A program made the translations under genes and the position numbers. Source: a virus. From it: a DNA stretch of 22,960 bases. The notes below the pieces were generated by a model. That model saw only the letters and a list, made by a program, of their open reading frames with translations. It did not search any database and was not told the origin of the DNA. Below, piece by piece: positions 1,453 to 20,760 of the stretch (its first letter is position 1; each line of letters starts with the position of its first letter). The stretch spans positions 1-22,960 of the IMG/VR virus record IMGVR_UViG_3300034062_001424; one strand, written 5' to 3'.

Positions 1453-1628
1453 TGACCCTCTACGACCGCATCATGGCGATCTACCCAACGCTGGTGACGC
1501 AGGACTTCCTAACCGTCATCCGTCTCCAGAACGACAGCGATGGTCGGGGCGACTACATTGCCGCCTGGAGCCACCCGACGCTGCCACGCCCCACGCAGGA
1601 ACAGCTTGACGCTGTGGAGGCCACCTGA
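1452..1628 (+). CDS. XkdW-like small tail protein
   Basis: A 58-residue protein, MTLYDRIMAIYPTLVTQDF at the start and LPRPTQEQLDAVEAT at the end. The pattern (short helix with YP, then F....I.LQNDSDG..DYIAAW, then a P-T-x-E-x-L helix) resembles the small XkdW-type proteins encoded next to phage tail fibre genes, which are of unknown or chaperone-like role. The ATG at 1452 overlaps the upstream TGA, and the TGA at 1626-1628 overlaps the ATG of the next gene. This chain of one-base overlaps on both sides strongly supports a real, translationally coupled gene despite its length. The family call is from pattern recognition, not a search. Confidence 0.75.
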   Translation: MTLYDRIMAIYPTLVTQDFLTVIRLQNDSDGRGDYIAAWSHPTLPRPTQEQLDAVEAT

Positions 1629-2698
1629 TGTCAACAATCCAAGCGACGAACATCAAGTCCGCCGCCTCTGTCTCGAACAACATCGTCCTCGACGCTTCGG
1701 GCAACGCAACCTTCGCGGGCACTGCGGCGATGGCGTCCAGCTTCCTGCGGAACCGCATCATCAATGGGGATATGCGAATCAGCCAGCGGAATGGGACTTC
1801 GGCTGGCACCTATGGGGCCGGAGCCGCATATTGGCTTGATCGTTGGATAAACTCGGCAAGCATTGCGAACAACATGCAGGTGCAGCAATCAACAATTGCC
1901 CCTGCCGGTTTCAACAACTCGACCATTTTTCGGGCGCTCACGGGGGCAACTATTGGTTCGTCCGACCTGTTTGTCTCTCAGCAACTAATTGAGGGATTTA
2001 ATGTTGGAGACTTGGCCTGGGGAACTGCCTCTGCGGTGACCGTTACCTTGTCTTTCTGGGTTCGCTCATCCGTGACCGGCACGTTCGGCGGCTCTATTCG
2101 CAACGGTTCGCTCAACAGGTCGTACCCCTTTACCTACAGCATTGCTTCAGCCGACACCTGGACTTACCGAACTGTCACAATCCCCGGAGACACAACAGGG
2201 ACATGGGCAACGGACAATTCGGCTGGGTTGAGCCTGAACTTTGATCTCGGGTCTGGTTCAACGTTTCGCGGAACCGCTGGCACATGGGCGGCAGCCAATT
2301 TTATTGGTGCGACCGGAAGCGTATCGCCGATGGCGACCAACGGCGCAACCTTCTACCTGACCGGCGTCCAACTCGAAGTAGGCACCGTCGCAACGCCCTT
2401 TGAACGCAGGCAGTTCGGGCAGGAACTGGCGCTGTGCCAGAGGTACTATCAGGTGCTAACTAGTCAGTTGGTTTATGAGGGAACGGTTAATGGAGGCGCT
2501 AACCCAATTAACAATATAGCCCTTCCAGTACCAATGAGGTCTTCCCCAACTGTTTCACTCACATCTCTTGGAAGCAGCAATGCATCCACTTTGTTGGTGA
2601 ACACTGTAGATGCGACAACACTCAGGGTGCAGTGCACGGCACTTGCAACAGGAAGTGCATTCTTCGTCTATAATGCTGGCATTGCAGCGGAACTTTGA
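1628..2698 (+). CDS. Tail fibre / receptor-binding protein
   Basis: A 356-residue protein. Residues 1-40 (MSTIQATNIKSAASVSNNIV, then LDASGNATFAG) look like a short virion-attachment or stalk segment. From residue 42 comes a widespread phage fibre module: NRIINGDMRISQRNG, a LDRW strand, FRALTG, IEGFNVGDLAWGTASA, LSFWVRSSVTGTF, TVTIPGDTTGTW, and ATFYLTGVQLEVGTVATPFE followed by RRQFGQELALCQRYY. This is a beta-rich, probably carbohydrate-binding fold. The last 80 residues after CQRYY form a separate tip that differs from its paralogue at the left edge. The fold is inferred from family patterns; adhesion to the host surface is the expected role. It is followed 3 bases later by its small partner protein. 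Confidence 0.88.
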   Translation: MSTIQATNIKSAASVSNNIVLDASGNATFAGTAAMASSFLRNRIINGDMRISQRNGTSAGTYGAGAAYWLDRWINSASIANNMQVQQSTIAPAGFNNSTIFRALTGATIGSSDLFVSQQLIEGFNVGDLAWGTASAVTVTLSFWVRSSVTGTFGGSIRNGSLNRSYPFTYSIASADTWTYRTVTIPGDTTGTWATDNSAGLSLNFDLGSGSTFRGTAGTWAAANFIGATGSVSPMATNGATFYLTGVQLEVGTVATPFERRQFGQELALCQRYYQVLTSQLVYEGTVNGGANPINNIALPVPMRSSPTVSLTSLGSSNASTLLVNTVDATTLRVQCTALATGSAFFVYNAGIAAEL

Positions 2699-2701
2699 TC
2701 C

Positions 2702-2881
2702 ATGTACACCAACGCTCAATACATCGCCTTCAATGGCGTCAACACCAGCATCCGCTGTGACATTGACGGCGTGACCTCGTTCGTGCCGCTTGACCCGGCG
2801 AATGTTGACTACCAGAACATCATGGCGCTGGTCGCTGCTGGCGAGCTTACTATTGCTCCTGCCGACTCTGCTGGGGGATAA
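2702..2881 (+). CDS. Small fibre-associated protein (copy 2)
   Basis: A 59-residue protein, easily missed because of its length. It reads MYTNAQYIAFNGVNTSIRCD and then IDGVTSFVPLDPANVDYQN, IMALVAAGELTIAP and ADSAGG. It is a clear paralogue of the protein at 647-823, and both start 2-3 bases after the stop of a homologous fibre gene whose last residues are Glu-Leu. The shared arrangement supports joint duplication and a joint role with the fibre. Function is otherwise unknown; a fibre assembly or cap role is an inference from position. Confidence 0.85.
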   Translation: MYTNAQYIAFNGVNTSIRCDIDGVTSFVPLDPANVDYQNIMALVAAGELTIAPADSAGG

Positions 2882-2887
2882 AGACGG

Positions 2888-3601
2888 GTGTTTGGCTTCT
2901 ACCCATTCAGCGGCGCTTCGTTCAGTGGGCTAGCCAACGCCTTCTATGCCGAGAGTGTGTCTGACGCCATTGTCCTGACGGATGCTGCCACAACACAAAA
3001 GGCGGCTGTCGCCGCTGGGGCCGACACCCTCGTCCTGTCTGATGTGGCGAACGGCAGCCTCAGCATGCTGGCGAGCGCGTCCGACGCCATCGTCCTGACG
3101 GACTTTGCGGCCAAGGCCCCGGACTGGTTCGCTGCGGCGTCCGATACCCTGACCCTGACCGACTCTGCTGCCATAAGCTATAATTTCCTGGGGGCGGCAT
3201 CTGACACGATAACTCTTACGGATTCCGCCACGGGCGGCTTTGCCTTCCTAGAGAGCGTGTCGGATTCCATCACCTTTGCAGAGACGGCGGTCGGCAACTT
3301 TGCCGCATCGGCAAGTGCGTCTGACACCATCATCCTGGCTGACGCTTCGGCTGGCATTTTGGCTATGCCGGTGTCGGCCTCTGACGCCATAGTCCTGACG
3401 GACGTTGCGGCAAATATCGCTGGCATGGTCGCGTCTGCGTCGGATACAATCACCCTCGTAGACGTTGGGGCAGGATACGGAGGGTGGGACCCGATACCGA
3501 ATCCGAATCCGGGCTGGACTCCGATCAACCCAGGAGGGGGCAGTTCTTGGACGCCCATCTCCCCCGTGGCAGCAACCTGGACCCCTATAGGAAACAGCTA
3601 A
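2888..3601 (+). CDS. Tandem-repeat virion protein with W-x-P-I tail
   Basis: A 237-residue, very low-charge protein with a GTG start. The N-terminus (VFGFYPFSGASFSG, residues 1-22) is followed by eight full and one partial copy of a 20-residue repeat of the form SxSD(A/T)I(V/T)LTD-A, from residue 23 to about 196. The C-terminal 38 residues contain four W-x-P-I motifs at W200, W210, W221 and W231 in a Pro/Gly-rich context. Repeats of this kind point to a beta-solenoid or fibre-like structural element, and W-rich tails of this style occur in other phage minor structural proteins. No enzymatic motif is visible. The start at GTG 2888 is the only good candidate after the upstream stop at 2881. The exact role is unknown. 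Confidence 0.8.
   Translation: MFGFYPFSGASFSGLANAFYAESVSDAIVLTDAATTQKAAVAAGADTLVLSDVANGSLSMLASASDAIVLTDFAAKAPDWFAAASDTLTLTDSAAISYNFLGAASDTITLTDSATGGFAFLESVSDSITFAETAVGNFAASASASDTIILADASAGILAMPVSASDAIVLTDVAANIAGMVASASDTITLVDVGAGYGGWDPIPNPNPGWTPINPGGGSSWTPISPVAATWTPIGNS
2954..3475 (+). repeat. Nine 60-bp coding repeats (20-residue period)
   Basis: Codons 23-196 of the repeat protein read as a strict 20-residue period with no length variation in eight successive units. The conserved part is SASDTITLTD (first ten residues); the second ten residues vary. Conservation is clearer in protein than in DNA, so this is an old or selected repeat rather than a fresh DNA expansion. Confidence 0.9.
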
Positions 3602-4159
3602 ATGAGCCTCAAAGATAACCTTCGAGTCGTGGATGAAGCCGCAGCCGGGCTGACTATGGGGCATTCTGCCCAGGACAGCATCGACGTGAAGGGCTCCTTC
3701 AAGGTGATCTGCCGAGCCGCTGACGGCTCCGTCCGCTGGGAAGATGACCTCTCGAACCTCGTTGTGACGGTCGGCAAGAACGACCTCTTCAACAAGTACT
3801 TCGGTGGCTCGGCCTACAACGCGGCGTTCTTCGTCGGTCTGAAGACCGCCGGTTCCATCAGCGCAGCCGACACGATGTCCTCGAAGTCGTGGACCGAGAT
3901 TACGGTTTACTCGAACGGCACTCGCCCCGCCTACACGGCAGGAACTGCTGTGGCCGGTTCGACCGACAACACCGCGTCTCCCGCCGTCTTCAACATCAAC
4001 GGCACCGCGACGGTTGGTGGTTGCTTTATTGTGACCGGCGCTGGTGCCAACACGATTGGGGGCACGACCGGCACGCTCTTCTCTGCGACGGACTTTGCGG
4101 TTGCTCGCAGCGTCCTGAGCGGCGACACGCTGACCGTCACCTACACGATCTCCTGCTGA
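3602..4159 (+). CDS. Virion structural protein of unknown role
   Basis: A 185-residue protein starting MSLKDNLRVVDEAAAG, directly after the stop of the repeat protein; AGGAA lies 9 bases upstream of the ATG. Visible features are a short helical start, a DLSNLVVTVGKNDLFNKYF segment, a FFVGLKTAG strand with SAADTMSSKSWTEIT, and a beta-rich second half (GTATVGGCFIVTGA, FSATDFAVARSVLSGDTLTV). This pattern recurs in phage structural modules next to tail fibre genes, but I know no experimentally assigned function. It is probably a minor tail or decoration protein. It has no signal peptide, membrane segment or catalytic motif. Confidence 0.75.
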   Translation: MSLKDNLRVVDEAAAGLTMGHSAQDSIDVKGSFKVICRAADGSVRWEDDLSNLVVTVGKNDLFNKYFGGSAYNAAFFVGLKTAGSISAADTMSSKSWTEITVYSNGTRPAYTAGTAVAGSTDNTASPAVFNINGTATVGGCFIVTGAGANTIGGTTGTLFSATDFAVARSVLSGDTLTVTYTISC

Positions 4160-4170
4160 GGGTAGGGTAG

Positions 4171-5337
4171 ATGCCCAGTACATATTCGCCAGCCCTACGG
4201 CTTGAGCTTATCGGCAACGGTGAGCAGGCCGCGAACTGGGGCAACACAACGAATACCAACCTGGGCTCCCTGCTTGAGCAGGCGATCACTGGCGTCGGCA
4301 ACATTGTTATGGCCGACGCCAACTACACGCTCATCAGCGGTAACGGCATTGCAGACGAGGCCCGTAATGCGGTGCTGGTTATCACTGGCACCCTGACAGC
4401 GACACGCAACGTCATCGTGCCGACGAGCAACAAGTTCTATGCCGTCCGGAATGCGACTACTGGCAGCCAGAGCATTGTGGTGAAGACCGCCGCTGGCACT
4501 GGGGTAACGCTCGCCAACGGCTTCACTCAGCTTATGTACTGCGACGGGACGAACGTTGTCCTGGCGTCCATTCCCATCAATGCGACTAACGGGAATGTCT
4601 CTGTCTCTGGTGCAGCAGCTATTGCTGGCAACACGACGATTGGCGGCAACCTTGCCGTCACGGGCACCATCACTGTCGCTGGCGGCGATATCATCCCTGC
4701 TGGCGTGATCTGGGAATACGGCGGCTCCACGGCCCCGACCGGCTGGCTCCTCTGCAATGGCGCTGCTGTGAGCCGCACGACCTATTCGGCGCTCTTTGCC
4801 ATCATTGGCACGGCCTACGGCAACGGCGACGGCTCCACCACATTCAACGTTCCAGACCGGCGTGACCGCGTTGGTGTTGGGGCAGGATCAAGCTATTCTC
4901 GGGGTCAGACCGGCGGCGCCGTTACTGCCACCACCAGCACTGATGGCGCTCATAACCATACCGGCAACACTGGCGGCACGACACTCAGTACCGCACAGAT
5001 TCCAAGCCACCAGCATACTGGTACGACCAACATAGCTGGGGCGCACACGCACCGCACTGGCGAGCCCAACAGCGGTGGTGGCAACTACTATGGCACCGCA
5101 TCTGGGTTTGGCGGAAACATTAGCTCTCCTGCTGACCGTGATCGTCTGATTGGCGGCATTCTTGACGACCAAACTTACGTCACCAGCACGGACGGCAACC
5201 ACAGCCATACCTTCCTTACGGACGGAACTGGTGGGGGCGGAAGCCACAACCACACCATCAGCACGGACGGGTCGCACACTCACACGGTCTCGACGCTTCA
5301 GCCCTACCTAGCCTCGAACTTCATCATCAAGACCTAA
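4171..5337 (+). CDS. Tail-collar domain fibre protein
   Basis: A 388-residue protein. The N-terminal 130 residues (YSPALRLELIGNGEQAANWG, then TNTNLGSLLEQAI) are a familiar phage fibre base segment. A short stalk (NTTIGGNLAVTGTITVAGGD) leads to a tail-collar domain at about residues 172-230 (IIPAGVIWEYGG, PTGWLLCNGAAVSRTTYSAL, YGNGDGSTTFNVPDRRDRVG). The C-terminal part carries six His-x-His pairs at residues 261/263, 280/282, 292/294, 344/346, 359/361 and 369/371, followed by LQPYLASNFIIK. In the T4 short tail fibre, similar histidines bind metal along the trimer axis, so metal-stabilised trimerisation is likely here. The start ATG follows a purine-rich GAGGGTAGGG site. Confidence 0.9.
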   Translation: MPSTYSPALRLELIGNGEQAANWGNTTNTNLGSLLEQAITGVGNIVMADANYTLISGNGIADEARNAVLVITGTLTATRNVIVPTSNKFYAVRNATTGSQSIVVKTAAGTGVTLANGFTQLMYCDGTNVVLASIPINATNGNVSVSGAAAIAGNTTIGGNLAVTGTITVAGGDIIPAGVIWEYGGSTAPTGWLLCNGAAVSRTTYSALFAIIGTAYGNGDGSTTFNVPDRRDRVGVGAGSSYSRGQTGGAVTATTSTDGAHNHTGNTGGTTLSTAQIPSHQHTGTTNIAGAHTHRTGEPNSGGGNYYGTASGFGGNISSPADRDRLIGGILDDQTYVTSTDGNHSHTFLTDGTGGGGSHNHTISTDGSHTHTVSTLQPYLASNFIIKT

Positions 5338-5338
5338 C

Positions 5339-7432
5339 ATGCCACTCACCAAGCTCCAGTTTGCACCGGGGGTCTTGCACGACGGGTCTCGGTACTCAAC
5401 GTCCGGGGCTTGGTCTGACTCTGACAAGGTGCGCTTCCGCTCGAACTTCCCTGAGAAGATTGGAGGGTGGCAGCGCGCCACCTTGCAGGCGTTTATGGGC
5501 ACGGCTCGCAACCTGTTCCCATTCTCTGATCTGACGGGCAGCTACTTCCTGGGGATCGGCACAAACCTCAAGTACTACATCGAACGCGGCGGCTCTCTCT
5601 ACGACATCACACCCATCCGAGCGACGATCACGCAGAGCAACCCATTCTCCACCACGAGTGGTTCAACGACGGTCGTTGTGACGATCCCTAATCATGGGGC
5701 GTTCCAGAATGATTTCGTGACTTTCTCTGGGGCGAGTGCTGTCGGCGGTCTTACCCTGAATGGTGAGTTTCAGATTACCGATGTGCTGACATCGGCCACA
5801 TTCACCATCACTGCCGCATCTGCTGCCTCATCCACAGCGACTGGCGGCGGCTCCGTCACGGCAGTCTTCCAGCTTAACACTGGCCTGGACACAACGCTGT
5901 ACGCGAACGGCTGGGGCGCTGGAACCTGGGGCGGCGTTCTGCCTGGAACCAGCGCCACCTTCACCGGCTCCATCAGCGGCACGACAATGACCGTCACGTC
6001 GGTCGCATCTGGTACTCTAGCTGTTGGACAGTTAGTCACTGGAACCGGCGTGTCGGCCAGTCCTCCGGGCTCTTCTGCCACATACATAACTGGCGTGACT
6101 ACGCCCTGGTCGGCGTCGCCGCCCACGAACGGCGTTTACACCGTCAGCGTGTCGCAGACTGTCTCGTCCACCACGATGTTTGCCTTCAGCGGTACTGGAT
6201 GGGGCGCTGCGTCTAACACCCAGGTCGCTGGTACACGACTGAGGCTATGGTCCTCCGATAACTTCGGGCAGAACCTCGTCATCAATCCGCGTGACGCAGC
6301 GATCTATTACTGGGCAAACTCTGGAGGACTTGGCTCCAGAGCGGTGCTTCTGTCGTCCCTTGGCGGCGCGTCTGATGTCCCATCGGTTGCGCGACAGATC
6401 ATTGTCTCCGATCTCGACCGCAAGGTGATCGCCTTTGGCTGTTCGGACATTGTGACCAACGTCCAGGATCGTCTTTTGATTCGTTGGTCTGATACGGAGA
6501 ACCCTGCTGTTTGGACTCCACTGGAGACCAACTCTGCTGGCGGCATTCGCATTCCTACCGGCTCTGAGTTTGTGTCTGCCATCGAGACCAAGCAGGAGAT
6601 TCTTGTTTGGACTGACGATGCGCTGCACTCCTTGCGCTATATTGGCGCTCCCTTTGAGTACTCGATTGCACGTATCGCCCTGACTTCCCTTCTTGCTCCC
6701 CAGGCCGTTGTGTCCGCAAACGACGTGACGTTCTGGATGGGGCAGAATGGATTCTTCCAGTACGACGGTCGCGCGATTGGCCTGCCTTGCTCGGTCAAGG
6801 ATTTTGTCTTCAACGACATCAACCTAAACCAAGCCGAGAAGATCACGGCTGGCAGCAACATGGCGTTCAATGAGGTGTGGTGGTTCTACCCATCTGCCAA
6901 CTCAAACGAGAACGACCGCTACGTTGTCTATAACTACAACGAGCGCGTTTGGAGCGTGGGTACAATTGTTCGCACGGCCTGGATTGATCGCAGCATTGAG
7001 GACTTTCCTCGTGCGGCCTCTGTCGATGGCTACGTCTATTTCCATGAGATTGGGCAGGATGATGGTTCGACCAATCCGCCGTCTCCGATTCTCGCATACA
7101 TTGAAAGCTCTCCCATTGAGATTGGGCAGGGCGATCAGTTTGGCTTTGCTTGGCGCATGATCCCTGACTTGGACTTCAGGAACAGTTCTGCCCCTAACCC
7201 AACGGTGAACTTCATCTTGGAGACGCAGGACTTCTCTGGCTCCAACTTCAACCAGTTCGCCAACAACAACACGACCCTGACGGCAACGCTGCCTATCGCT
7301 CAGTTCACGGACCAGACCTACTTCCGTCTAAGGGGCCGCATGCTGACGCTGCGAGTGCAGAGTGAAGAGGTCGGCGTTGCTTGGCGCCTGGGCGTTCCGC
7401 GTGTCGATATCCGGACGGATGGCCGTCGATGA
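5339..7432 (+). CDS. Tail nozzle / packaged-DNA stabilisation-like protein
   Basis: A 697-residue beta-rich protein. The N-terminus (FAPGVLHDGSRYSTSGAW, then DKVRFRSNFPEKIGGWQRA) is typical of a large structural protein found in many podovirus-like genomes beside the ejection proteins. It resembles, in plan, the P22 gp10 / phage-stabilisation group that closes the portal channel, but I cannot prove this from sequence alone. Two small beta modules follow: residues about 95-180 (TIPNHGAFQNDFVTFSGA) and 205-284 (TFTGSISGTTMTVTSV to VSQTVSSTTMF). The core then resumes at GWGAAS and LRLWSSDNFGQNLVINPRD. The later region has WMGQNGFFQYDGR and a PDLDFRNSS strand set. Its stop overlaps the next start (ATGA). 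Confidence 0.7.
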   Translation: MPLTKLQFAPGVLHDGSRYSTSGAWSDSDKVRFRSNFPEKIGGWQRATLQAFMGTARNLFPFSDLTGSYFLGIGTNLKYYIERGGSLYDITPIRATITQSNPFSTTSGSTTVVVTIPNHGAFQNDFVTFSGASAVGGLTLNGEFQITDVLTSATFTITAASAASSTATGGGSVTAVFQLNTGLDTTLYANGWGAGTWGGVLPGTSATFTGSISGTTMTVTSVASGTLAVGQLVTGTGVSASPPGSSATYITGVTTPWSASPPTNGVYTVSVSQTVSSTTMFAFSGTGWGAASNTQVAGTRLRLWSSDNFGQNLVINPRDAAIYYWANSGGLGSRAVLLSSLGGASDVPSVARQIIVSDLDRKVIAFGCSDIVTNVQDRLLIRWSDTENPAVWTPLETNSAGGIRIPTGSEFVSAIETKQEILVWTDDALHSLRYIGAPFEYSIARIALTSLLAPQAVVSANDVTFWMGQNGFFQYDGRAIGLPCSVKDFVFNDINLNQAEKITAGSNMAFNEVWWFYPSANSNENDRYVVYNYNERVWSVGTIVRTAWIDRSIEDFPRAASVDGYVYFHEIGQDDGSTNPPSPILAYIESSPIEIGQGDQFGFAWRMIPDLDFRNSSAPNPTVNFILETQDFSGSNFNQFANNNTTLTATLPIAQFTDQTYFRLRGRMLTLRVQSEEVGVAWRLGVPRVDIRTDGRR

Positions 7433-12432: not shown

Positions 12433-15400
12433 ATGTCGTTTGATGTGGACGGTGCAAGGCGGGCTGGCTACTCGGACAAGGACATTGCCGAGTATCTAGC
12501 CCCTCGCAGGAACTTCAACATCGGAGGGGCGCGTGAGGCCGGATACTCTGATGCTGACATCGTCTCCTACTTGATGAGCAGGCCCGCTCCGGCGGGTCGA
12601 GAAACTGTTGCCCCCACTCAAGTTACTGAGGCTCCCGCTCAGCGAGCGCCCACTCCGGAACGTGGCTTCTTCGGCGGCATCGCTTCTCTAGCTGGCGACA
12701 CTGGTGCGTCTATCGTCACAGGCGCTGGTAGCGCCCTGTCTGGTATCGGCGGCTTGGGCGGCGTTGCTGGCCTTGGCTACGACAACATGCTGTCTCGCGC
12801 TGGCCGTCGAGTCTCCGAGTTCGGTGAGGGGCTCATGTCCCCCGAGCTTGTCGAGAAGCGGCAGGCTCTCTCTCGCGCCATTCAGGACGCCGAGTCCCAG
12901 GGTCTAGTTGGCGAAGCGCGTGCCGCGCTCTCCACCCTGGCGTCGAACCCCAGCCTGCTCTTCTCTATGGCGATTGAGCAGATCCCCGCCTTCGTGCTGT
13001 CTGGTGGCGTCGGCAGGGGCGCGTCTGCGATTGGTCAGGTGGCAGCACGTCGTGCTGCGGTTGGCGGTGGCGAGGCTGCTGAGCAGGCCGTCCTCCAGGC
13101 TGGTCAGCGCGCTGGTCAGGTTGCCGCTGTCGGCACTGCCGCTGGCTTGCAGGGTGGTAGCGTTGCTGAGGAGACGTATCAGGATGTGATGCGTCTGCCG
13201 GGCGAGACGCTTCAGCGCAGCCCTGTCTATCAAGAACTCCTGCGGAGCATGTCTCCGGACGAGGCTCGCGCCACCATTGCTGATCGTGCTGCCCGCGAAG
13301 CTGGTGTTCTTAGTGGCGGCATCTCTGTCGGCGCGATGGCCCTCATGCCGTCGAGCGCAGAGCGAGCTTTGTTTTCTCGTGGCGTGTCTCAAAGCGCGAT
13401 CCGTCGTGCGCTTGGCGTTGGTACTGCCGAAGCCGGGTCTGAGGCCATCGAGGAAGGCGGCGGTCAGTTCGCACAGAACCTTGCCATTCAGCGCCGGGCT
13501 GATGAGCAGCGCAGTCTAACGCAGGGTGTTGGCGGTGCGGCTGCTACGGGCGCTGTGCTTGGCGGCATCATGGGTGGTGGTATTGGCGCGATCCAGCGTC
13601 CTCCCATCCCTCCCTCCACCGAGCCGGGCGCTGGCAATCTTCCGTCCGATCTGCGTGGCGCTATCGAAGACTATGTGGCGAACCGCGAACCTATGACTGA
13701 GGGGCAGAATCTTCTGCCTCGTGAGCTTCCCGTCGTTGATACGCCGGTCGGCAACCTCACCGTGTCTCAGGCCATCCGCTACTTTGAGCGTCGGTTTCCT
13801 GAGCTTGCTAGCCTGGACGACGTTCAGGAGAAGATTCGTGTAGGCCAAACCCTTCTTGCCAGGGAGCAGGAGGGTCGTGCTGCTGGTCGGCAGGGTGTGG
13901 AGGAGGGCCGCTACCGCAGGGAGATTGCCACCAGCCCTGAAACGGCAGAGGCTTTCCGTCTCGCAGATATACAGGCTCGCAATCGTCCAGTCGTTAACGA
14001 AGAGACGATCCGCCGCAATCTCGAAGCCTCAGATCTTGAGCTTGATCGGCTTCTCGTCGCCAAGGAATACGAGACACAGAGGCTGGCCGCTGCCACCAGC
14101 GGCGGCAGAGTTGATGCTATGGCTCGTGAGTCCGCTCAGTCTAACCTCAATCAGCTTAACCAACTGATCGCAGCGCAAGAGCAGGCTCGCAGGGAGATTT
14201 CTGCCCAGCTTCCCACCACTGAAAGGGAGGCTCCTTACGCTGGTGGACGCCGGGCTGAGGCTGAGAAGGCGTTTGCTGAGGCCGAAATCCAACAGAGGCA
14301 GGGCGCTGTTCCCAGCGTTGACGTTCTTCGTCGGGATCTAGCTGCGGCTGAGGATCAGCTTAAGCGTCTGATGGACGCGCGCGATGACGCGAACAAGCGC
14401 CTCAAGAAGATCGAGAAGGCCAAGGTTCTAGACGCTCCAGCCAGGGAAGCCACGCAGGCTGAGATCGCCAATCTTGACGATCTGATCGCCGGGCGTGAGG
14501 CAATTCGTCGTTCCATCGTGAACTCGATGCCTGCCACCGAGCGCGACATCACTGCTCGCGAGAACCTTCGCACCCAGGCTGGTGAAGCCTTCGGTGTGGC
14601 ACAGGGAATGAGAGATAACCTGGAGCGGCAGCAGCAGGCTCCTGGCATTGAGATCCCTTCCGGCTCTGGCGTTCCCGACACGATCCCTCAGCAGACGGAC
14701 GACACCCGCGCTGGCGCGCCGCAGATCACAGGCCAGCGTTACCTTCTGAACCCCGTCTATAATGCACGGGGCGAAATTGAGAATGGCGAACAGGTTCTCG
14801 ACATTCTGCCATCCGATAACTTCGGGAAGGTCCTGGCGGTTGTCGAGCGCCAGAGAGGCAACATCACTGAGCAAGTCCCCGTCGAGACTACGATGGACGA
14901 GCTTGTGCAGATGCCTATCCGCGAGACTGCTCGCGCGACGCAGGAGTCCATTGGCGCTGGTGTCGCTCCTCCGCGTGGCGTTGGCTCTGACATTCAGCCT
15001 CGTCGTGCCACTAGCCGTCAGACGCCGCAGGCTTCCGCTCGTGCTGCTGGGGCAGAACAGACTGCACCACAGGTAGAGGCCGAGCCGAGCGCCGCTGACG
15101 CTCGCGCGTCTCGTCGTATTGCTGCCCTGAACAGGATCAATGCTCTCTATCTAGACAAGCTCAAGGGCATGGGTGTCCAGGGCCGTCTGATCCGCAACGC
15201 CGTCGTTGATGCGCTGAAGAACCGCACGATGTCGGCGGGGGAAGTGTATGGTTCCTTCATTGCGGCTGACCGACTTGCTGGCCTTCTGCCTGCTGGTGCG
15301 AACCACCGCATTCAGTTCGTCAAACAGCTTCTGCCCACAAAGGAACTCGCAGAGGCCATCGCCCGTAGTGGAGGTGACCCGACGAAGGAATTGCAGGGTC

Positions 15401-18400
15401 TTCGTGAGCGTCCCTCCGATGCCGCCTTGCAGGGCGTCATCACGATCTCGCTCTCTCCCTCATCGAACGTCATGCCCTACCTGACTGAGACGGCGACGCA
15501 TGAGGCGTTCCACGTCCTTCAGGATTACTACAGCAAGTACGATCCGCAGTTTGACAGGCTCATGGGTCAGAGCTTCCGCGACAACATGATGATTGGGGAC
15601 GTTGACCCGACCATCCGCAGGAAGCTTGAGCAGGCGCGCTATCCGAACTCCAGCAAGAGCTACTGGCAAGTTCTGAGCGAGAGCCTGCCCAATGTGATCG
15701 AGGACGCCAAGGAAGCCCAGGCTTACGTCTTCGCCGCGCTGATGGATGCGTCTCGTCGTGGCGTGCCTATGACTGGGCTGAAGCCTGCCTTTGCTCGCTT
15801 CGTGAATGTGATCAAGAACTTCTTCTCGAAGATGGGCAGCGCGCTGCGCGGCGACGGATTCCAGACGGTCGAAGAGGTTCTTGGCCGCGCTGCTCGTGAG
15901 GGTGGCCGACGCTTCGACCAGATGGCTGCGCCGACCGAGCAGGACTTCCCGTCGCGCGGGGCGCAGGCTTCTGCCCGCAACCTCGCTGAGATGCCGGGCG
16001 TCGATGTGTCTGAAGGCAACAAGCTGGGATTTGAGCCTGCCCTTCGGGTGCGAGCAGATGTTGATGAAAGCACTCTGCCCAGGCTCGCGCTGATTTCTCA
16101 AAGCACGGACAACAAGAACGCGGCTCGTCAGCTTGCTGCGCTTGATGACACCCTGTCGAAGTTCCCCACTCCTGAGAACTCCGCTGAAGACTGGGCGAAG
16201 ATGGAGGCTTATGCCTTCTCATCTCCGGAAGTCCCGATCCCGCCGTACAACTTCATGCGGGACATTAATGGCGGTGCGGTTGACCTTCTCCGGACGCTCA
16301 CGAAGGGGCAGATCGAGGATGCCGATCATGGCTTCCGCAACGCCCGGATGTTCCGCCAAGCATACATCAACAAAGAGCTTAGCCCGGTCACAACAGGCAA
16401 GCTCTTCATGTGGTCTTTCCTGTCTCGCGGAGTTTCGCCGTACACGCAGGAGAGTCTCTTCGTTGATGCCTTCGATGGGGCAGATCAGTGGATTAGGAAG
16501 GCGGCTGCCGGTGACTTCACTGAAGCCGACTTCCCTGCTTACGAGCGCTGGGCAAAGTCTGTCGCCCCGAAGGGAAGTGGTCAGCCCGGAGCCGGAGCTA
16601 CCCACAACCTCAACGCATTCGGAAAGAGCTTCCTCTTCAAGATGTCTAGGCGGGACGCCCCTGGCGGCATCTCGCGCCTTCAGTATCTTCACAACCTGAT
16701 GGAAGACCCGACCAGCACAGGCAAGGGTATCCGTCGTGAGTTTGTGAAGATGGCGTCTGATGGCGTCGGCATCGACAACAAGGTTGTCTCCTTCACCCTG
16801 CTCGTGTCTGGATTCCCAGACGTGATGGTCCTTGACCGCGTTCAGATGCGACGTCTCTGGGACGATGGTAGGTTCAACAACAAGAACCTGTATGACGGAG
16901 AGACCGAAGAGCGCGTTGTCAACGGAGAGAAGAAGCGCGTCACAAAGACGGGCACATCCCTTGCTGAGCTTACCTATGGCGCGCGTGGCCTGCTCATCTA
17001 TGAAGCTATCGAAAGGGCGCTGGAGCGCAGGATTGCCAGCATCTATGGGGCTGTTGGCCGACCGCAGGACGCCAGCGTTGGGCGATATCATTGGGAAACT
17101 TGGGTTGCGGACAGCCAGCAAGAGGCGTCGCATGGCAGCATCGACGCCATCCTTTCTGACGCTCGCGGCGACGACAGGGCGATTGCTCGCGTTGTAGCCA
17201 AGCAGGGAGAATACGGCGGGTACGAGTATGGCGCTCGCTACGGGAGAGACGAGCAGGGCGTTCCGTACTTCATCTATGACGCCGGAACCGGGCGGGATAT
17301 GAAGTTCAGTGTTCCCGCCTTTCGTGGGTTTCTCACTGATGTGAAGATTCCTGCGAGCGGAGTTGTGCCTGCAAGTGTTGGTGAAAAGCCAATGCTTGAT
17401 GCGGACGGCAATGCAGTGCTGTATAAGGTTGGACCTAACAAGGGCCAGCCTCGCACCGAGCCTATCCCTTTCAGCGTTTCGGAGAGTGGGAATGCCCCCT
17501 GGTACACGCGACCCGAAGTCAATCGAGAGAGGCTCCAAGAGCTTGCTTCGTCCTGGGCGGATCGAGGAGGCGGCACAGGCGAAAGAGCGAGAACTGTTTT
17601 CGCTGATGCTGCGCGGGCCGAAGCTTCCGCTCGCGACAGAGCCGGATCCGGGTCAGCAGCAGAGCTAACCAACGAGCAGACTGAGGAACTGATCGACCAG
17701 GGCGTCGCCGCCCTTCAGTCTGCCGCGCTCAACGTCCAAGCTTCTGCGCGTGTTGGTGACATCGTCACCGACGTTGAGGTCATCGAGGCATCCGGAACGA
17801 GAGCCAAGGCGAACTACGTTATAGTTGCCGACCTCAAGTCTGGTGGCTATCTGAACATTGACCTGTCGGTTGATGATGGGCTTCTGAAGGTAAACGTCGT
17901 TCAGGGTCTGAATATTCAGAAGAACCCCTTCAAGTACAAGACGGATGGTTTTGGGATTTATTCTGAAGGCGTCGATCTCACCTACACTGGGATGAAAGAA
18001 CTCTCGCGCCGCGTTCTTGAAATCCTGCTGCGGAACCACCCCAACATCAACGAAGCTCAGGGCTTCCGGGTTGCTGGTGCCCGTATGAGGGCGGCTCGTG
18101 AGAGGGGTGAAGAGAACAACCTCGAACGCCTGAAGGCCCGAGCGAAGCTTAGGATTCCCCAGGCATCTGCCCGTTCTCCGCTTGCCGCCGATCCTGCCTT
18201 TGCCGTCATGCGAGACAAGCTGACGGGCAAGGAGATCGACAAGCCCAACGTCTTTGCTGACGGGCTTCGTAGGTTTGTTGGAGCCCTGCCGGGCGAGAAT
18301 CTTTCTTCTGCCCTCGTGCGGACCTCCGTCAATCGCGCTGGTGCAGGGTGGATGATTGACACCCTGTCTAAGCAAAAGGGCATGACCGTCAGGAATGTCG

Positions 18401-20760
18401 GTCAGGCTATGGAGATTGCGCTCAACAACAGCGGTCGTGTTCAGATGTACCTGAATCATGGCCCACTCGCATACGATCCGAAGACCGGCGACGTGAATGT
18501 GCGCGATGACGTGCCGGGCCTAATCGACGCCATCAAGGGTAAGCTCAACGTTGCAGACAAGAGGGAGGCACAAGCCTACCTTGTCGCTCTTCGTGAGCGC
18601 GATCTTCGTAAGGCAGGAAAGAAGGGCTTCTTCAACCTGACCGACAAGGAGATGAACGCCATCATCTCCAAGGCTGAGGCGGCGCACCCTGAGTGGAGGC
18701 AGATGGCTGCTGACATTCAGCGCATCAACAAGGCGCTGCTCGACTTCGCTGTCGCCACTGGCACTCTTGATCGTGCCAAGGCTGATCAGCTTGGCAGCAT
18801 GTTCTACACGCCCTTCTACCGGCAGGCCGATGAGGACGTGAAGGGCGATTCAGACGCAGTCGTTGGGCCGCGTCTGTCTCAGAGCCTCACTCGCGTTAAG
18901 AGCGCCTTCGATGTCAGCGTGAAGGGCGGAGAGAATCCGCTTGGCGATCTGTTCGAGAACATGATCCGCAACGCCGACGTGATCATGAAAGCTGGCATGA
19001 AGAACGTCGCCATGAGCAAGGCGGCTGAGGCGTTGCAGGATGTCGGCCTTGGTCGCCCAGTGAAGACGCGCGAGACGGGCAAGACCATTACCTACCGCGT
19101 TAATGGGCAGGATAGACACTTCGAGGTTGATGATCCCGCCTTCTACATCGCCCTTGCTGGAGCGCCGCGTGAGTTCACGAACGGTATCTATCAGACGATG
19201 GCGACGATGGCGGGCTTCTTCCGCGACATGGTGACGCTGGCACCGAGCTTCATGCTGGCGAACCTGTGGCGTGGTAAGATCATGGCGTATGTGCAGGAGG
19301 GAACTCCCCTCTATGCAAATACGTTCGATGGTCTGAAGCAGGCCCTTCAGTCCAGCGCGTCCTATAAGGCCATCGCCGCACAGACTGGCTTCGGTGGCTA
19401 CACCTACGGCATGGGCGAGCGTGATGCTGCCGCCGCCTTCGAGCGTGAGATTGCCGGGCTTGGCTACGGCCCTGGCGGTCTGATGCGTCGCGCCTTCGAC
19501 ACTCTCCAGAAGGCCAGCGAAGCGACGGAAATGGCCGAGCGCATCAAGATTTATGAGCGCATGAAGGCTCAGGGGATGAGCGACAAGGACGCTGCATTCC
19601 AGGCTTATCTCCTTGCGCCGTTCTCTCGCAGGGGTATGGGCGGTGGCTGGATCGGCTCCACCGTCAACTGGCTTGTGCCTCTTGTGCCGTTCTTGAATGC
19701 CAAGATTCAGGGCATGTACCGCCTTATCGAAAACGAGAAGGGCGACAAGACGGTTGGCGTGTGGAAGGTCCGCATGGCGCGACAGATGTTCCTGCGCGGC
19801 CTTGTGGTCATGGGCCTGTCGCTGGCGCTTGCTGCCAAGAACATGGCGGATGAACCTGAGCGTTGGGATAACGAGAACCCTGACCTCAAGTTCCGCTACG
19901 ACATCTGGTATCTGCCGAATGACAACAGGATCCTCCTGCCTCGAGCCTTTGAAATCGGCTCCTTCTTTGGTGCGCTGCCTGTCTTTATTCTCGACGCCAT
20001 CCGTCGCAACGACAGCAGGGACTTGGGCAAGGCGCTAACCGATCTAGGCACCTCGACCTTCTTCTTTAATCCAATCCCCCAGGCTGCTGTGCCTGTGCTG
20101 GGTGCCTTCACGAACTACGACTTCTTCCGTAGCCGCTCACTTGAGACGGCTGGTGATGCGAGCAAGCTTCCCGAAGAGCGCGTCAATCGCAGCACGAGTT
20201 CCGTCGCCAAGGCAATTGGCGAGACGTTCGGGGTCAGTCCGATCCGGGTTCAGTATGTGCTTGAGGGATACTCGGGCACGATTGGCTCGACTGTCTTGGC
20301 TGGCTTCGACAGCATCCTTTCTTCCTTCGGGATGATCCCTGGCAAGCCTGCTGGTGCGTTTGGCGATCCGATGAGCATGCCTGCCATCATCGCCGGTCTG
20401 ACTGGAGCGAACCGCTTCTATCGAAGCGATGACCAGAGTGCGACTCGCTTCATTGGCGAGTTCTACAAGATCAAGGAGATGACGGACCAGCTTGTGCGGT
20501 CTCAGAACATGGCTATGGAGACACGCGACCTTGATCGTTTGGCAGAACTGCGTGGCGATGCTGGTCTGCCCCTGCGTCTGAGGCCGATGGTCAATCAAGC
20601 CTCGACGCAGATCACTGAGATCAACAAGCGCATGGCTCGCATCGAGCGCAGCGATATGGACTCGGTGTCTAAGGCTGACGCGCTGCGTCCCTTGAGGGAG
20701 CAGCGCGACATGGTGGCAAGGCGTGTTGTTGAAAGGGCTAGACAGATCGGCGCTTACTGA
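12433..20760 (+). CDS. Giant polyvalent ejection protein (2775 residues)
   Basis: The protein is far larger than T7 gp16. Order of parts: two 25-residue GAR.AGYSD repeats (3-51); a Gly/Ala-rich hydrophobic region (about 75-390); a tandem duplicated 106-residue helical module (520-731); a metalloprotease-like domain with HEAFH at 1023-1027 and a possible third ligand E1094; a segment with DNKVVSF and VLDRVQMR (1183-1729), possibly HhH-glycosylase-like; a 136-residue alpha/beta segment (1774-1909); and a long C-terminal region resembling large-polyvalent-protein-associated domains such as LPD38, with a membrane-like helix at 2452-2471. Motifs (Q/E)ASAR at 866, 1178, 1730, 1769 and 1910 separate these parts. 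Such giants are thought to be injected with phage DNA to protect it or reprogramme the cell; that role is inferred. No lysozyme or transglycosylase motif was recognised. Confidence 0.8.
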   Translation: MSFDVDGARRAGYSDKDIAEYLAPRRNFNIGGAREAGYSDADIVSYLMSRPAPAGRETVAPTQVTEAPAQRAPTPERGFFGGIASLAGDTGASIVTGAGSALSGIGGLGGVAGLGYDNMLSRAGRRVSEFGEGLMSPELVEKRQALSRAIQDAESQGLVGEARAALSTLASNPSLLFSMAIEQIPAFVLSGGVGRGASAIGQVAARRAAVGGGEAAEQAVLQAGQRAGQVAAVGTAAGLQGGSVAEETYQDVMRLPGETLQRSPVYQELLRSMSPDEARATIADRAAREAGVLSGGISVGAMALMPSSAERALFSRGVSQSAIRRALGVGTAEAGSEAIEEGGGQFAQNLAIQRRADEQRSLTQGVGGAAATGAVLGGIMGGGIGAIQRPPIPPSTEPGAGNLPSDLRGAIEDYVANREPMTEGQNLLPRELPVVDTPVGNLTVSQAIRYFERRFPELASLDDVQEKIRVGQTLLAREQEGRAAGRQGVEEGRYRREIATSPETAEAFRLADIQARNRPVVNEETIRRNLEASDLELDRLLVAKEYETQRLAAATSGGRVDAMARESAQSNLNQLNQLIAAQEQARREISAQLPTTEREAPYAGGRRAEAEKAFAEAEIQQRQGAVPSVDVLRRDLAAAEDQLKRLMDARDDANKRLKKIEKAKVLDAPAREATQAEIANLDDLIAGREAIRRSIVNSMPATERDITARENLRTQAGEAFGVAQGMRDNLERQQQAPGIEIPSGSGVPDTIPQQTDDTRAGAPQITGQRYLLNPVYNARGEIENGEQVLDILPSDNFGKVLAVVERQRGNITEQVPVETTMDELVQMPIRETARATQESIGAGVAPPRGVGSDIQPRRATSRQTPQASARAAGAEQTAPQVEAEPSAADARASRRIAALNRINALYLDKLKGMGVQGRLIRNAVVDALKNRTMSAGEVYGSFIAADRLAGLLPAGANHRIQFVKQLLPTKELAEAIARSGGDPTKELQGLRERPSDAALQGVITISLSPSSNVMPYLTETATHEAFHVLQDYYSKYDPQFDRLMGQSFRDNMMIGDVDPTIRRKLEQARYPNSSKSYWQVLSESLPNVIEDAKEAQAYVFAALMDASRRGVPMTGLKPAFARFVNVIKNFFSKMGSALRGDGFQTVEEVLGRAAREGGRRFDQMAAPTEQDFPSRGAQASARNLAEMPGVDVSEGNKLGFEPALRVRADVDESTLPRLALISQSTDNKNAARQLAALDDTLSKFPTPENSAEDWAKMEAYAFSSPEVPIPPYNFMRDINGGAVDLLRTLTKGQIEDADHGFRNARMFRQAYINKELSPVTTGKLFMWSFLSRGVSPYTQESLFVDAFDGADQWIRKAAAGDFTEADFPAYERWAKSVAPKGSGQPGAGATHNLNAFGKSFLFKMSRRDAPGGISRLQYLHNLMEDPTSTGKGIRREFVKMASDGVGIDNKVVSFTLLVSGFPDVMVLDRVQMRRLWDDGRFNNKNLYDGETEERVVNGEKKRVTKTGTSLAELTYGARGLLIYEAIERALERRIASIYGAVGRPQDASVGRYHWETWVADSQQEASHGSIDAILSDARGDDRAIARVVAKQGEYGGYEYGARYGRDEQGVPYFIYDAGTGRDMKFSVPAFRGFLTDVKIPASGVVPASVGEKPMLDADGNAVLYKVGPNKGQPRTEPIPFSVSESGNAPWYTRPEVNRERLQELASSWADRGGGTGERARTVFADAARAEASARDRAGSGSAAELTNEQTEELIDQGVAALQSAALNVQASARVGDIVTDVEVIEASGTRAKANYVIVADLKSGGYLNIDLSVDDGLLKVNVVQGLNIQKNPFKYKTDGFGIYSEGVDLTYTGMKELSRRVLEILLRNHPNINEAQGFRVAGARMRAARERGEENNLERLKARAKLRIPQASARSPLAADPAFAVMRDKLTGKEIDKPNVFADGLRRFVGALPGENLSSALVRTSVNRAGAGWMIDTLSKQKGMTVRNVGQAMEIALNNSGRVQMYLNHGPLAYDPKTGDVNVRDDVPGLIDAIKGKLNVADKREAQAYLVALRERDLRKAGKKGFFNLTDKEMNAIISKAEAAHPEWRQMAADIQRINKALLDFAVATGTLDRAKADQLGSMFYTPFYRQADEDVKGDSDAVVGPRLSQSLTRVKSAFDVSVKGGENPLGDLFENMIRNADVIMKAGMKNVAMSKAAEALQDVGLGRPVKTRETGKTITYRVNGQDRHFEVDDPAFYIALAGAPREFTNGIYQTMATMAGFFRDMVTLAPSFMLANLWRGKIMAYVQEGTPLYANTFDGLKQALQSSASYKAIAAQTGFGGYTYGMGERDAAAAFEREIAGLGYGPGGLMRRAFDTLQKASEATEMAERIKIYERMKAQGMSDKDAAFQAYLLAPFSRRGMGGGWIGSTVNWLVPLVPFLNAKIQGMYRLIENEKGDKTVGVWKVRMARQMFLRGLVVMGLSLALAAKNMADEPERWDNENPDLKFRYDIWYLPNDNRILLPRAFEIGSFFGALPVFILDAIRRNDSRDLGKALTDLGTSTFFFNPIPQAAVPVLGAFTNYDFFRSRSLETAGDASKLPEERVNRSTSSVAKAIGETFGVSPIRVQYVLEGYSGTIGSTVLAGFDSILSSFGMIPGKPAGAFGDPMSMPAIIAGLTGANRFYRSDDQSATRFIGEFYKIKEMTDQLVRSQNMAMETRDLDRLAELRGDAGLPLRLRPMVNQASTQITEINKRMARIERSDMDSVSKADALRPLREQRDMVARRVVERARQIGAY
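12439..12585 (+). repeat. Two 25-residue GAR.AGYSD repeats
   Basis: Residues 3-26 and 28-51 of the giant protein repeat the pattern F(D/N)(V/I)xGAR(R/E)AGYSDxDIxxYL. The offset is exactly 25 residues. Similar AGYS-x-x-(D/E)-I-x-x-(Y/F)-L motifs occur near the N-termini of large phage internal proteins, where they may help virion packaging or assembly; that role is inferred. Confidence 0.85.
13990..14625 (+). repeat. Tandem 106-residue helical duplication
   Basis: Residues 520-625 and 626-731 of the giant protein align end to end without gaps. Paired landmarks are RRNLEAS / RRDLAAA, LDRLLVAKEYETQRL / LKRLMDARDDANKRL, DAMARESAQSNLNQLNQLIA / DAPAREATQAEIANLDDLIA and LPTTERE / MPATERD. Both copies are rich in Glu, Arg, Gln and Leu with heptad-like spacing, so a paired coiled coil or helical hairpin is likely. 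DNA identity is clearly lower than the protein pattern, so the duplication is old. Confidence 0.85.
15028..15042 (+). other. QASAR inter-domain motif 1
   Basis: Residues 866-870 of the giant protein, context TPQASARAAG, in a Ser/Arg/Gln-rich linker that ends the N-terminal half and precedes the metalloprotease-like domain. Codons are CAG GCT TCC GCT CGT. Confidence 0.8.
15499..15714 (+). other. HExxH zinc-metalloprotease-like motif in the giant protein
   Basis: Codons 1023-1027 read His-Glu-Ala-Phe-His in the context LTETATHEAFHVLQDYY, preceded by hydrophobic strands (GVITISLSPSSNVMPY). A glutamate at 1094 in KEAQAYVFAALMD, 67 residues after the second histidine, is a suitable third zinc ligand for a gluzincin-type fold. 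The domain is bounded by ASAR motifs at 866 and 1178. The motif is seen directly; activity is inferred. Confidence 0.7.
15964..15978 (+). other. QASAR inter-domain motif 2
   Basis: Residues 1178-1182, context RGAQASARNL, at the end of the metalloprotease-like domain. Codons are CAG GCT TCT GCC CGC. Confidence 0.8.
17620..17634 (+). other. EASAR inter-domain motif 3
   Basis: Residues 1730-1734, context ARAEASARDR, with Glu replacing Gln. It ends the 547-residue segment that contains DNKVVSF. Codons are GAA GCT TCC GCT CGC. Confidence 0.7.
17737..17751 (+). other. QASAR inter-domain motif 4
   Basis: Residues 1769-1773, context NVQASARVGD, 34 residues after motif 3 and directly before the small alpha/beta segment. 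Codons are CAA GCT TCT GCG CGT. Confidence 0.8.
18160..18174 (+). other. QASAR inter-domain motif 5
   Basis: Residues 1910-1914, context IPQASARSPL, directly before the long C-terminal region. Codons are CAG GCA TCT GCC CGT. Confidence 0.8.

Follow-up and report, generated by a model that had tools for sequence, protein, structure and literature searches.

A tryptophan-tailed repeat protein encoded in a phage tail-fibre cassette, with relatives in SAR11 and other aquatic phages

The window analysed here, the whole stretch of 22,960 nucleotides from the viral record IMGVR_UViG_3300034062_001424, encodes among its tail-fibre genes a protein that consists of a 22-residue head, eight 20-residue units, a partial ninth unit and a tryptophan tail. 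The gene product is probably a small, acidic shaft protein with the shape of a coil, of a class whose genes lie next to tail-fibre genes in many uncultured phages from water. We consider the chances even that it is a structural protein of the phage tail, in which a solenoid rod serves as a spacer and the conserved ends serve as docking segments.

Architecture and predicted fold of the repeat protein

The repeat gene is divided as follows.

2888..3601, + strand: coding sequence of the repeat protein, from its translation (237 aa, GTG start, TAA stop)
2888..2953, + strand: head of 22 residues, with hydrophobic-[G/S/A]-x3 three times at period 5 (F2-G3, F7-S8, F12-S13)
2954..3433, + strand: eight full 20-residue units, S-x-S-D-x-[IL]-x-[LF]-x-[DE]-x-A-x-G-...
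3434..3484, + strand: partial ninth unit (SASDTITLVDVGAGYGG)
3485..3598, + strand: tail with four W-x-P-I motifs (W200, W210, W221, W231), predicted to be disordered in the monomer

Homologues use the same start site with ATG, GTG or TTG. The window protein has a calculated pI of 4.05, contains 22 Asp and Glu residues against 2 Lys and Arg residues, and lacks Cys. Every unit is exactly 60 nt long (starts at 2954, 3014, 3074, 3134, 3194, 3254, 3314, and 3374), and the Asp of the SD motif falls at residues 26, 46, ... 186, giving eight gaps of exactly 20. BLOSUM62 autocorrelation of the protein peaks at lags 20, 40, and 60, with z = 14.4 at lag 20, a score that none of 1000 shuffles reached at any lag from 5 to 60. 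The strict array of eight units and a partial one, as given in the preliminary description, is thus borne out by the Asp spacing, the autocorrelation and the shuffles. The coordinates proposed there (2954-3600) start at unit 1 and omit the conserved 22-residue head at 2888-2953.

Mean identity between units is 53% in DNA and 40% in protein, values that point to an old protein repeat and not to a fresh tandem repeat of DNA. Among 124 units from 14 distinct proteins of the close family, hereafter the SD family, position 4 is Asp in all 124 and position 10 is Asp or Glu in 123, while in the same register position 6 is Ile, Leu, or Val in 124 and position 8 is Leu, Phe, or Ile in 124. Read from sequence, this pattern is that of a strand with one buried side and with acidic residues framing it. 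A Thr-rich, ice-binding-like face was considered and rejected as too variable: of the 124 units, 57 have Thr at position 5, 62 at position 7, and 54 at position 9. An antisense match within the coding sequence (E 2.9e-5, one stop) was dismissed as a reverse-strand echo of the repeats.

The tail tryptophans lie 10, 11, and 10 residues apart within the motifs WDPI, WTPI, WTPI, and WTPI, so that the spaced W-x-P-I motifs described earlier are confirmed at all four; a fifth tryptophan, W80, lies inside a repeat. When the 42-residue tail was shuffled, all three gaps fell between 10 and 12 in 41 of 20000 trials. Purifying selection was seen in head, repeats and tail alike within the close family. 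The dN/dS ratio, from 45 pairs of 10 sequences, was lowest for residues 1-25 (0.069), intermediate for the tail (0.144) and highest for the repeats (0.288).

An AlphaFold2 monomer model of the window protein, built with 23 sequences, reached a mean pLDDT of 62.1 and a pTM of 0.63, with the five models ranging from 46 to 62. It places two strands in each unit, and pLDDT is mostly 60-80 in the repeats and below 50 from residue 194 onwards in the tail. Disorder throughout, the outcome that had been set down beforehand as contradicting the proposed fold, was not seen, since the repeats were modelled as a beta-solenoid and only the tail as disordered. The beta-solenoid suggested in the preliminary description is supported, as a prediction, for the repeats by the two strands per unit and by the beta-helices found on structural comparison, at modest confidence, and does not extend to the tail. 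AlphaFold2 is known to turn many tandem repeats into solenoids; here, the alternation of buried and exposed residues in the window family backs the prediction, and a beta-solenoid is a reasonable prediction for the repeats.

Beta-helices headed the VIA-align comparison, with a Parabacteroides beta-helix adhesin at the top (4opw_A, Z 16.5, rmsd 3.1, 179 aligned). The beta-helix adhesins and secretion domains 4opw, FHA 1rwr, and HxuA 4i84, which we take to be right-handed beta-helices, share their fold class with the model and show no sequence relation to the window protein (6-12% identity). We know of no period-5 head or tryptophan tail in such proteins. The same comparison aligned residues 198-416 of the phage 7-7-1 tail fibre (9rkv_M, Z 13.7, rmsd 3.1, 195 aligned). 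This long tail fibre of an Agrobacterium phage (9rkv) has a beta-helical shaft like the one predicted for the window protein. Its authors call residues 177-453 beta-helical and describe a trimeric fibre that is anchored at its N-terminus and ends in a C-terminal jelly roll (PMC12796354); the model of the window protein has neither anchor nor jelly roll. Foldseek found no PDB chain below E 0.077 for the model, and its best match in BFVD was an uncharacterised protein of an uncultured phage (E 3.9e-6, 29% identical).

Close relatives and the wider class

A scan of IMG/VR with the window protein returned 26 loci, corresponding to 17 distinct sequences; many are copies, four are cut by contig ends, and one (L006) lacks the head. 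A further six loci, L047 and five distant ones, came from a profile scan. The 20-residue spacing recurs across the 26 close relatives, down to approximately 50% identity, and the conservation of the period in homologues, which had been named in advance as a test that could refute the proposed interpretation, is therefore established for this family. The number of repeats varies by whole units, as the suggested comparison of relatives brought out: L021 is two units short (197 aa), and L047 carries an extra unit (257 aa). The reading frame is intact in the relatives on 26 contigs.

The tail can be exchanged separately from the repeats. The last 180 nt of the L021 gene (L021:5412-5591) match the corresponding stretch of L015, L016, L018, and L019 at 99-100% DNA identity, while the repeats are 53-54% identical and the next gene is 71-72% identical. 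The exchange in L021 is apparently limited to the gene's 3' end, the remainder having diverged. Because 18-25% of bases in this stretch differ between the window and L015, recent recombination explains the L021 tail better than constraint on the DNA does; the exchange was seen in a single lineage. Tail DNA identity exceeds repeat identity in 87 of 91 pairs, and the tail is more similar than the next gene in 62 of the 78 comparable pairs. Spare copies of the tail, as expected of a shuffling cassette, were looked for and rejected: the tail is present in single copy in all eight close-family records, and no copy was found in five records of the SET family at E 0.1.

The SET family, taken as 21 of the 24 loci from its own scan (15 distinct proteins), has a head of the form MFGFYAFS, repeats of 20 residues and tryptophans 11 apart. 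Its head and first units align in register with those of the window family (hhalign E 1.4e-8, columns 1-112 on 1-112). The SET proteins are 261, 361, and 382/383 aa long, differences that correspond to 5 x 20 residues (261 versus 361) and to 2 x 11 residues in the tail (361 versus 383); one protein is a residue shorter after the last tryptophan. At core positions 6 and 8, the SET family has mostly Ala and Gly where the window family has Ile/Leu, so the detailed packing cannot match. The model of a SET protein (L066) is poor, with a pLDDT of 49, and carries little weight.

The VTG family has a period of 22 and includes HTVC023P gp68, HTVC027P gp68, and the DSL-LC04 and 023Pt_psg01 proteins; our set comprises at least 148 IMG/VR loci, its second list being the best 80 of 115. 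Among the VTG loci listed, 142 of the 153 ORFs of sufficient length are periodic, with the peak at 22 in 111, at 44 in 29, and at 23 in 2. At these loci, two or more such tail tryptophans occur in 163 ORFs at 143 loci, some of these ORFs being unrelated, and the tryptophan gap is 11 in 323 of 352 cases. A chain of at least three tryptophans 10-12 apart was found in 129 of the 142 periodic ORFs versus 3 of the 878 other ORFs at the loci listed, and one of these three (L225) apparently carries a true tryptophan tail. The distance from head to tryptophan is 194-198 or 260-261 in 36 of 58 distinct HTVC-type proteins from the loci listed, a count that omits the 22 with no match to the head pattern (some truncated, some with another spacing of the pattern).

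Profile-profile comparison, with one comparison behind each E-value, joined HTVC-type to DSL-type proteins (E 1.4e-20) and the SET tail to the tail of the DSL-LC04 group (E 1.1e-5, 47 columns). The SET to HTVC-type comparison was not significant (E 0.095), and the window family matched the HTVC type weakly and in the tail only (E 0.0026, probability 11.5%). At the level of sequence, the window-SET and HTVC-DSL relationships are firm, the SET-DSL link runs through the tails only, and the whole class is likely, though not proved, to share a common ancestor.

The head motif occurs in all 17 distinct SD proteins, in all 15 SET proteins, and in 108 of 110 VTG proteins, as against 4-8% of shuffled N-termini, a control that understates the freedom of choice, since visual inspection had picked out the motif in several families before any pattern was written and counted; proteins within a family are also not independent. 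We define W-tail modular phage repeat proteins here by this head motif, a period of 20-22, tryptophans 10-12 apart and a phrog_31104 gene close downstream, all of which the window protein displays. The W-G motif of the head recurs between repeat blocks within HTVC027P gp68 and the DSL-LC04 protein (L235:1980-2945, L084:1150-2280). A protein of ct7L0027 (L086:1-642) has the same type of head (MYGFDPLSTAPFSAL) and another tryptophan-rich end with WNG motifs, in which the tryptophan gaps are 4, 1, 8, 5, 8, and 5; this end matches three Rhodobacter phages.

The closest known proteins are gp68 of the Pelagibacter phages HTVC023P and HTVC027P, DSL-LC04 WJZ48131.1, and 023Pt_psg01 URG13121.1, all annotated as hypothetical. 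They resemble the window protein in the period-5 head, repeats of approximately 20 residues, the tryptophan tail and the neighbouring fibre N-terminal gene. They differ in their VTG-type repeats, with period 22 as measured in the IMG/VR relatives, and in tails whose tryptophans are mostly 11 apart and mostly W-x-x-[VI], without proline. The HTVC-type repeats show no convincing sequence match to those of the window protein.

Database searches placed the protein in no named family. PDB profile and phmmer sequence searches returned none, the best profile match being OspA at a weak E of 0.079, which is absent from the Foldseek and VIA-align rows listed. The repeats matched phrog_12240, a group of unknown function, weakly (E 2.5e-5) and over only 110 of its 387 profile positions. 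In Pfam, the calcium-binding nonapeptide (RTX) family gave no match to the window protein at E up to 1, and the class is unnamed, the one match, below cut-off, being Cthe_2159 to the 023Pt_psg01 protein (E 0.0005); NCBIfam returned nothing for the window protein and one sub-cut-off match for HTVC027P gp68. A tblastn search of phages gave two weak records for the window protein (best E 0.7) and none for a SET protein, and a window-family profile scan of genome contigs gave one Sporosarcina record (E 2e-5, residues 81-226). No virion proteomics or structure was found.

Gene neighbourhood

The genes around the repeat gene are as follows.

1628..2698, + strand: upstream tail-fibre gene, phrog_4492 (E 3.8e-57)
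2702..2881, + strand: small ORF of 59 aa between the fibre gene and the repeat gene, a paralogue of 608-823 (cross-matches; weak phrog_5784)
3602..4159, + strand: next gene, 185 aa, phrog_8123, function unknown (E 3.9e-30)
4171..5337, + strand: tail-collar/fibre gene, N-terminal part phrog_31104 (Pfam Collar E 8.7e-23; PHROGs)
5339..7432, + strand: homologue of a stabilisation protein, a virion protein, phrog_3287 (E 1.5e-62)

Phage relatives of the last product are annotated as 'stabilization protein' or 'needle head protein'. This tail-fibre cassette supports a location in the tail, the part of the earlier surface-fibre proposal that the gene context sustains.

Several further observations concern the window itself. 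The fibre-like genes 3-644 and 1628-2698 cross-match in relatives, and fibre modules therefore seem to have been duplicated and shuffled here. The small paralogous ORFs 608-823 (71 aa) and 2702-2881 each lie directly 3' of a fibre-like ORF and are possibly fibre assembly factors. A 59-aa ORF at 1449-1628, between two fibre-like genes, matches XkdW (PF09636, E 1.6e-8), and an ORF of 2775 aa at 12433-20760 carries LPD38 near its end (E 6.5e-20).

Gene context was compared in 19 of 27 close-family contigs and in 9 of 21 SET loci. The 185-aa gene lies directly 3' of the repeat gene in 18 of the 19 close-family loci, the nineteenth contig ending inside the repeat gene, and it is followed by the collar/fibre N-terminal gene in all 17 loci with room. 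All nine SET loci compared have a homologue of the 185-aa gene upstream, and the fibre N-terminal gene lies directly downstream in seven of the eight with room (the exception being L068). Among the VTG loci listed, the fibre N-terminal gene is found downstream in 129 of the 131 with room, at a distance of 60 nt or less in 87, of 61-300 nt in 41, and farther in 1. An upstream phrog_644-type gene is present in 47 of 113 VTG loci listed and is not a constant neighbour, because it occurs in 47 of 69 DSL-type loci and in none of 44 HTVC-type loci.

In the phages CRP-901 and CRP-902, a fibre gene of this kind is present with no W-tail protein directly before it, and the repeat protein is thus dispensable in some phages. 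MinM2 likewise carries the fibre gene and no W-tail gene just upstream. Among nine more phages collected through the fibre N-terminal domain, a W-tail gene lies just before it in one (HTVC027P) and is absent in seven, with Bordetella PHB04 left out. A terminase match was obtained in one of six phage records searched.

Possible role in the phage tail

Because the ends are conserved while the middle diverges and changes in whole units, the protein is most simply read as a rod-shaped spacer that docks through both of its ends. We infer that the protein is present in the virion, docks by its ends and acts as a spacer. It would be made and assembled together with the neighbouring fibre proteins, and its repeats would coil into a short acidic beta-solenoid with 20 residues and two strands per coil. 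The usual rise of a beta-solenoid is 4.8 angstrom per coil, and nine coils would give a rod of approximately 4 nm. The head and the flexible tail would tie this rod to conserved tail parts, most plausibly a fibre or adaptor encoded nearby, and the length of the spacer would be adjusted by whole units. With its tandem tryptophan motifs, the flexible and proline-rich tail is reminiscent of the short peptides by which viral fibres such as that of adenovirus dock, and repetition of the motifs would raise docking avidity.

It is also possible, with clearly lower probability, that the protein is a receptor-binding fibre, with the head as virion anchor, the solenoid as shaft and the tryptophan tail attaching to the host surface. 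The position among fibre genes speaks for this, as does the movement of the tail as a module in L021, which is often seen in receptor-binding parts. However, the exchange occurred in a single lineage, and receptor-binding tips are usually the most variable part, whereas this tail is among the best-conserved parts (dN/dS 0.144) and exceeds the repeats in identity in 87 of 91 pairs. A similar tail also occurs in phages of quite different hosts, SAR11 included. The better conservation of the tail than of the repeats (dN/dS 0.14 versus 0.29) is explained at least as well by docking to a conserved partner in the phage as by host-receptor binding.

A head/neck decoration or internal virion protein, outside the adsorption apparatus, seems unlikely to us. 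The DSL-LC04 gene lies a few genes after the adaptor, the corresponding stretch of CRP-901 lies between adaptor and fibre, and neither the 185-aa neighbour nor phrog_644 has a known function, all of which would suit such a protein. However, among constant neighbours the fibre N-terminal gene lies closest (129 of 131 VTG loci listed), and the window gene lies between fibre and collar genes.

A curli-like or amyloid-like fibre, produced in the infected host and secreted, is very improbable. Curli genes are reported in some HTVC023P-type pelagiphages (PMC9599517), and the SET-family model aligns to CsgA with Z 25.4, but with an rmsd of 8.8 and from a poor model. This reading was set aside: no Pfam curlin repeat was matched by the window protein at E up to 1 or by relatives at E up to 0.1, CsgG was found in none of 14 class-carrying phage records (several of them fragments, and the window not among them), and the gene is located in the tail module. 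A low-complexity relic with no functional protein, for which biased composition and the lack of a named family might be cited, deserves practically no weight, as it is refuted by the purifying selection in all regions (dN/dS) and by the intact frame in relatives on 26 contigs.

Beyond the spacer rod with docking ends, we tentatively propose, as a broader and more doubtful hypothesis, that the window protein represents a widespread, unnamed class of modular tail proteins with three nested periods: a 5-residue head, solenoid coils of 20 or 22 residues and a tryptophan ladder every 10-11. Rod length and the number of docking motifs would vary independently in whole units, allowing a phage to tune reach and avidity stepwise, and the docking ladder would be traded as a separate DNA module. 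Under the same hypothesis, the Asp ladders (positions 4 and 10) at both ends of one strand per coil may bind metal. Beta-solenoid tail proteins are already known; the modular layout with three periods appears to be undescribed in the open-access literature searched, in which we found no description of the W-tail repeat class.

The HTVC023P-type SAR11 phages are described as being among the most abundant in the ocean (PMC10149686). Although the class occurs in these and extends to many further phages of aquatic origin, neither Pfam nor NCBIfam has a name for it. Should the protein prove to be a rod in the virion, adjustable in length and equipped with a docking ladder, it would be a simple natural case in which an adsorption structure is tuned stepwise, and such tuning could be tested in a growable isolate.
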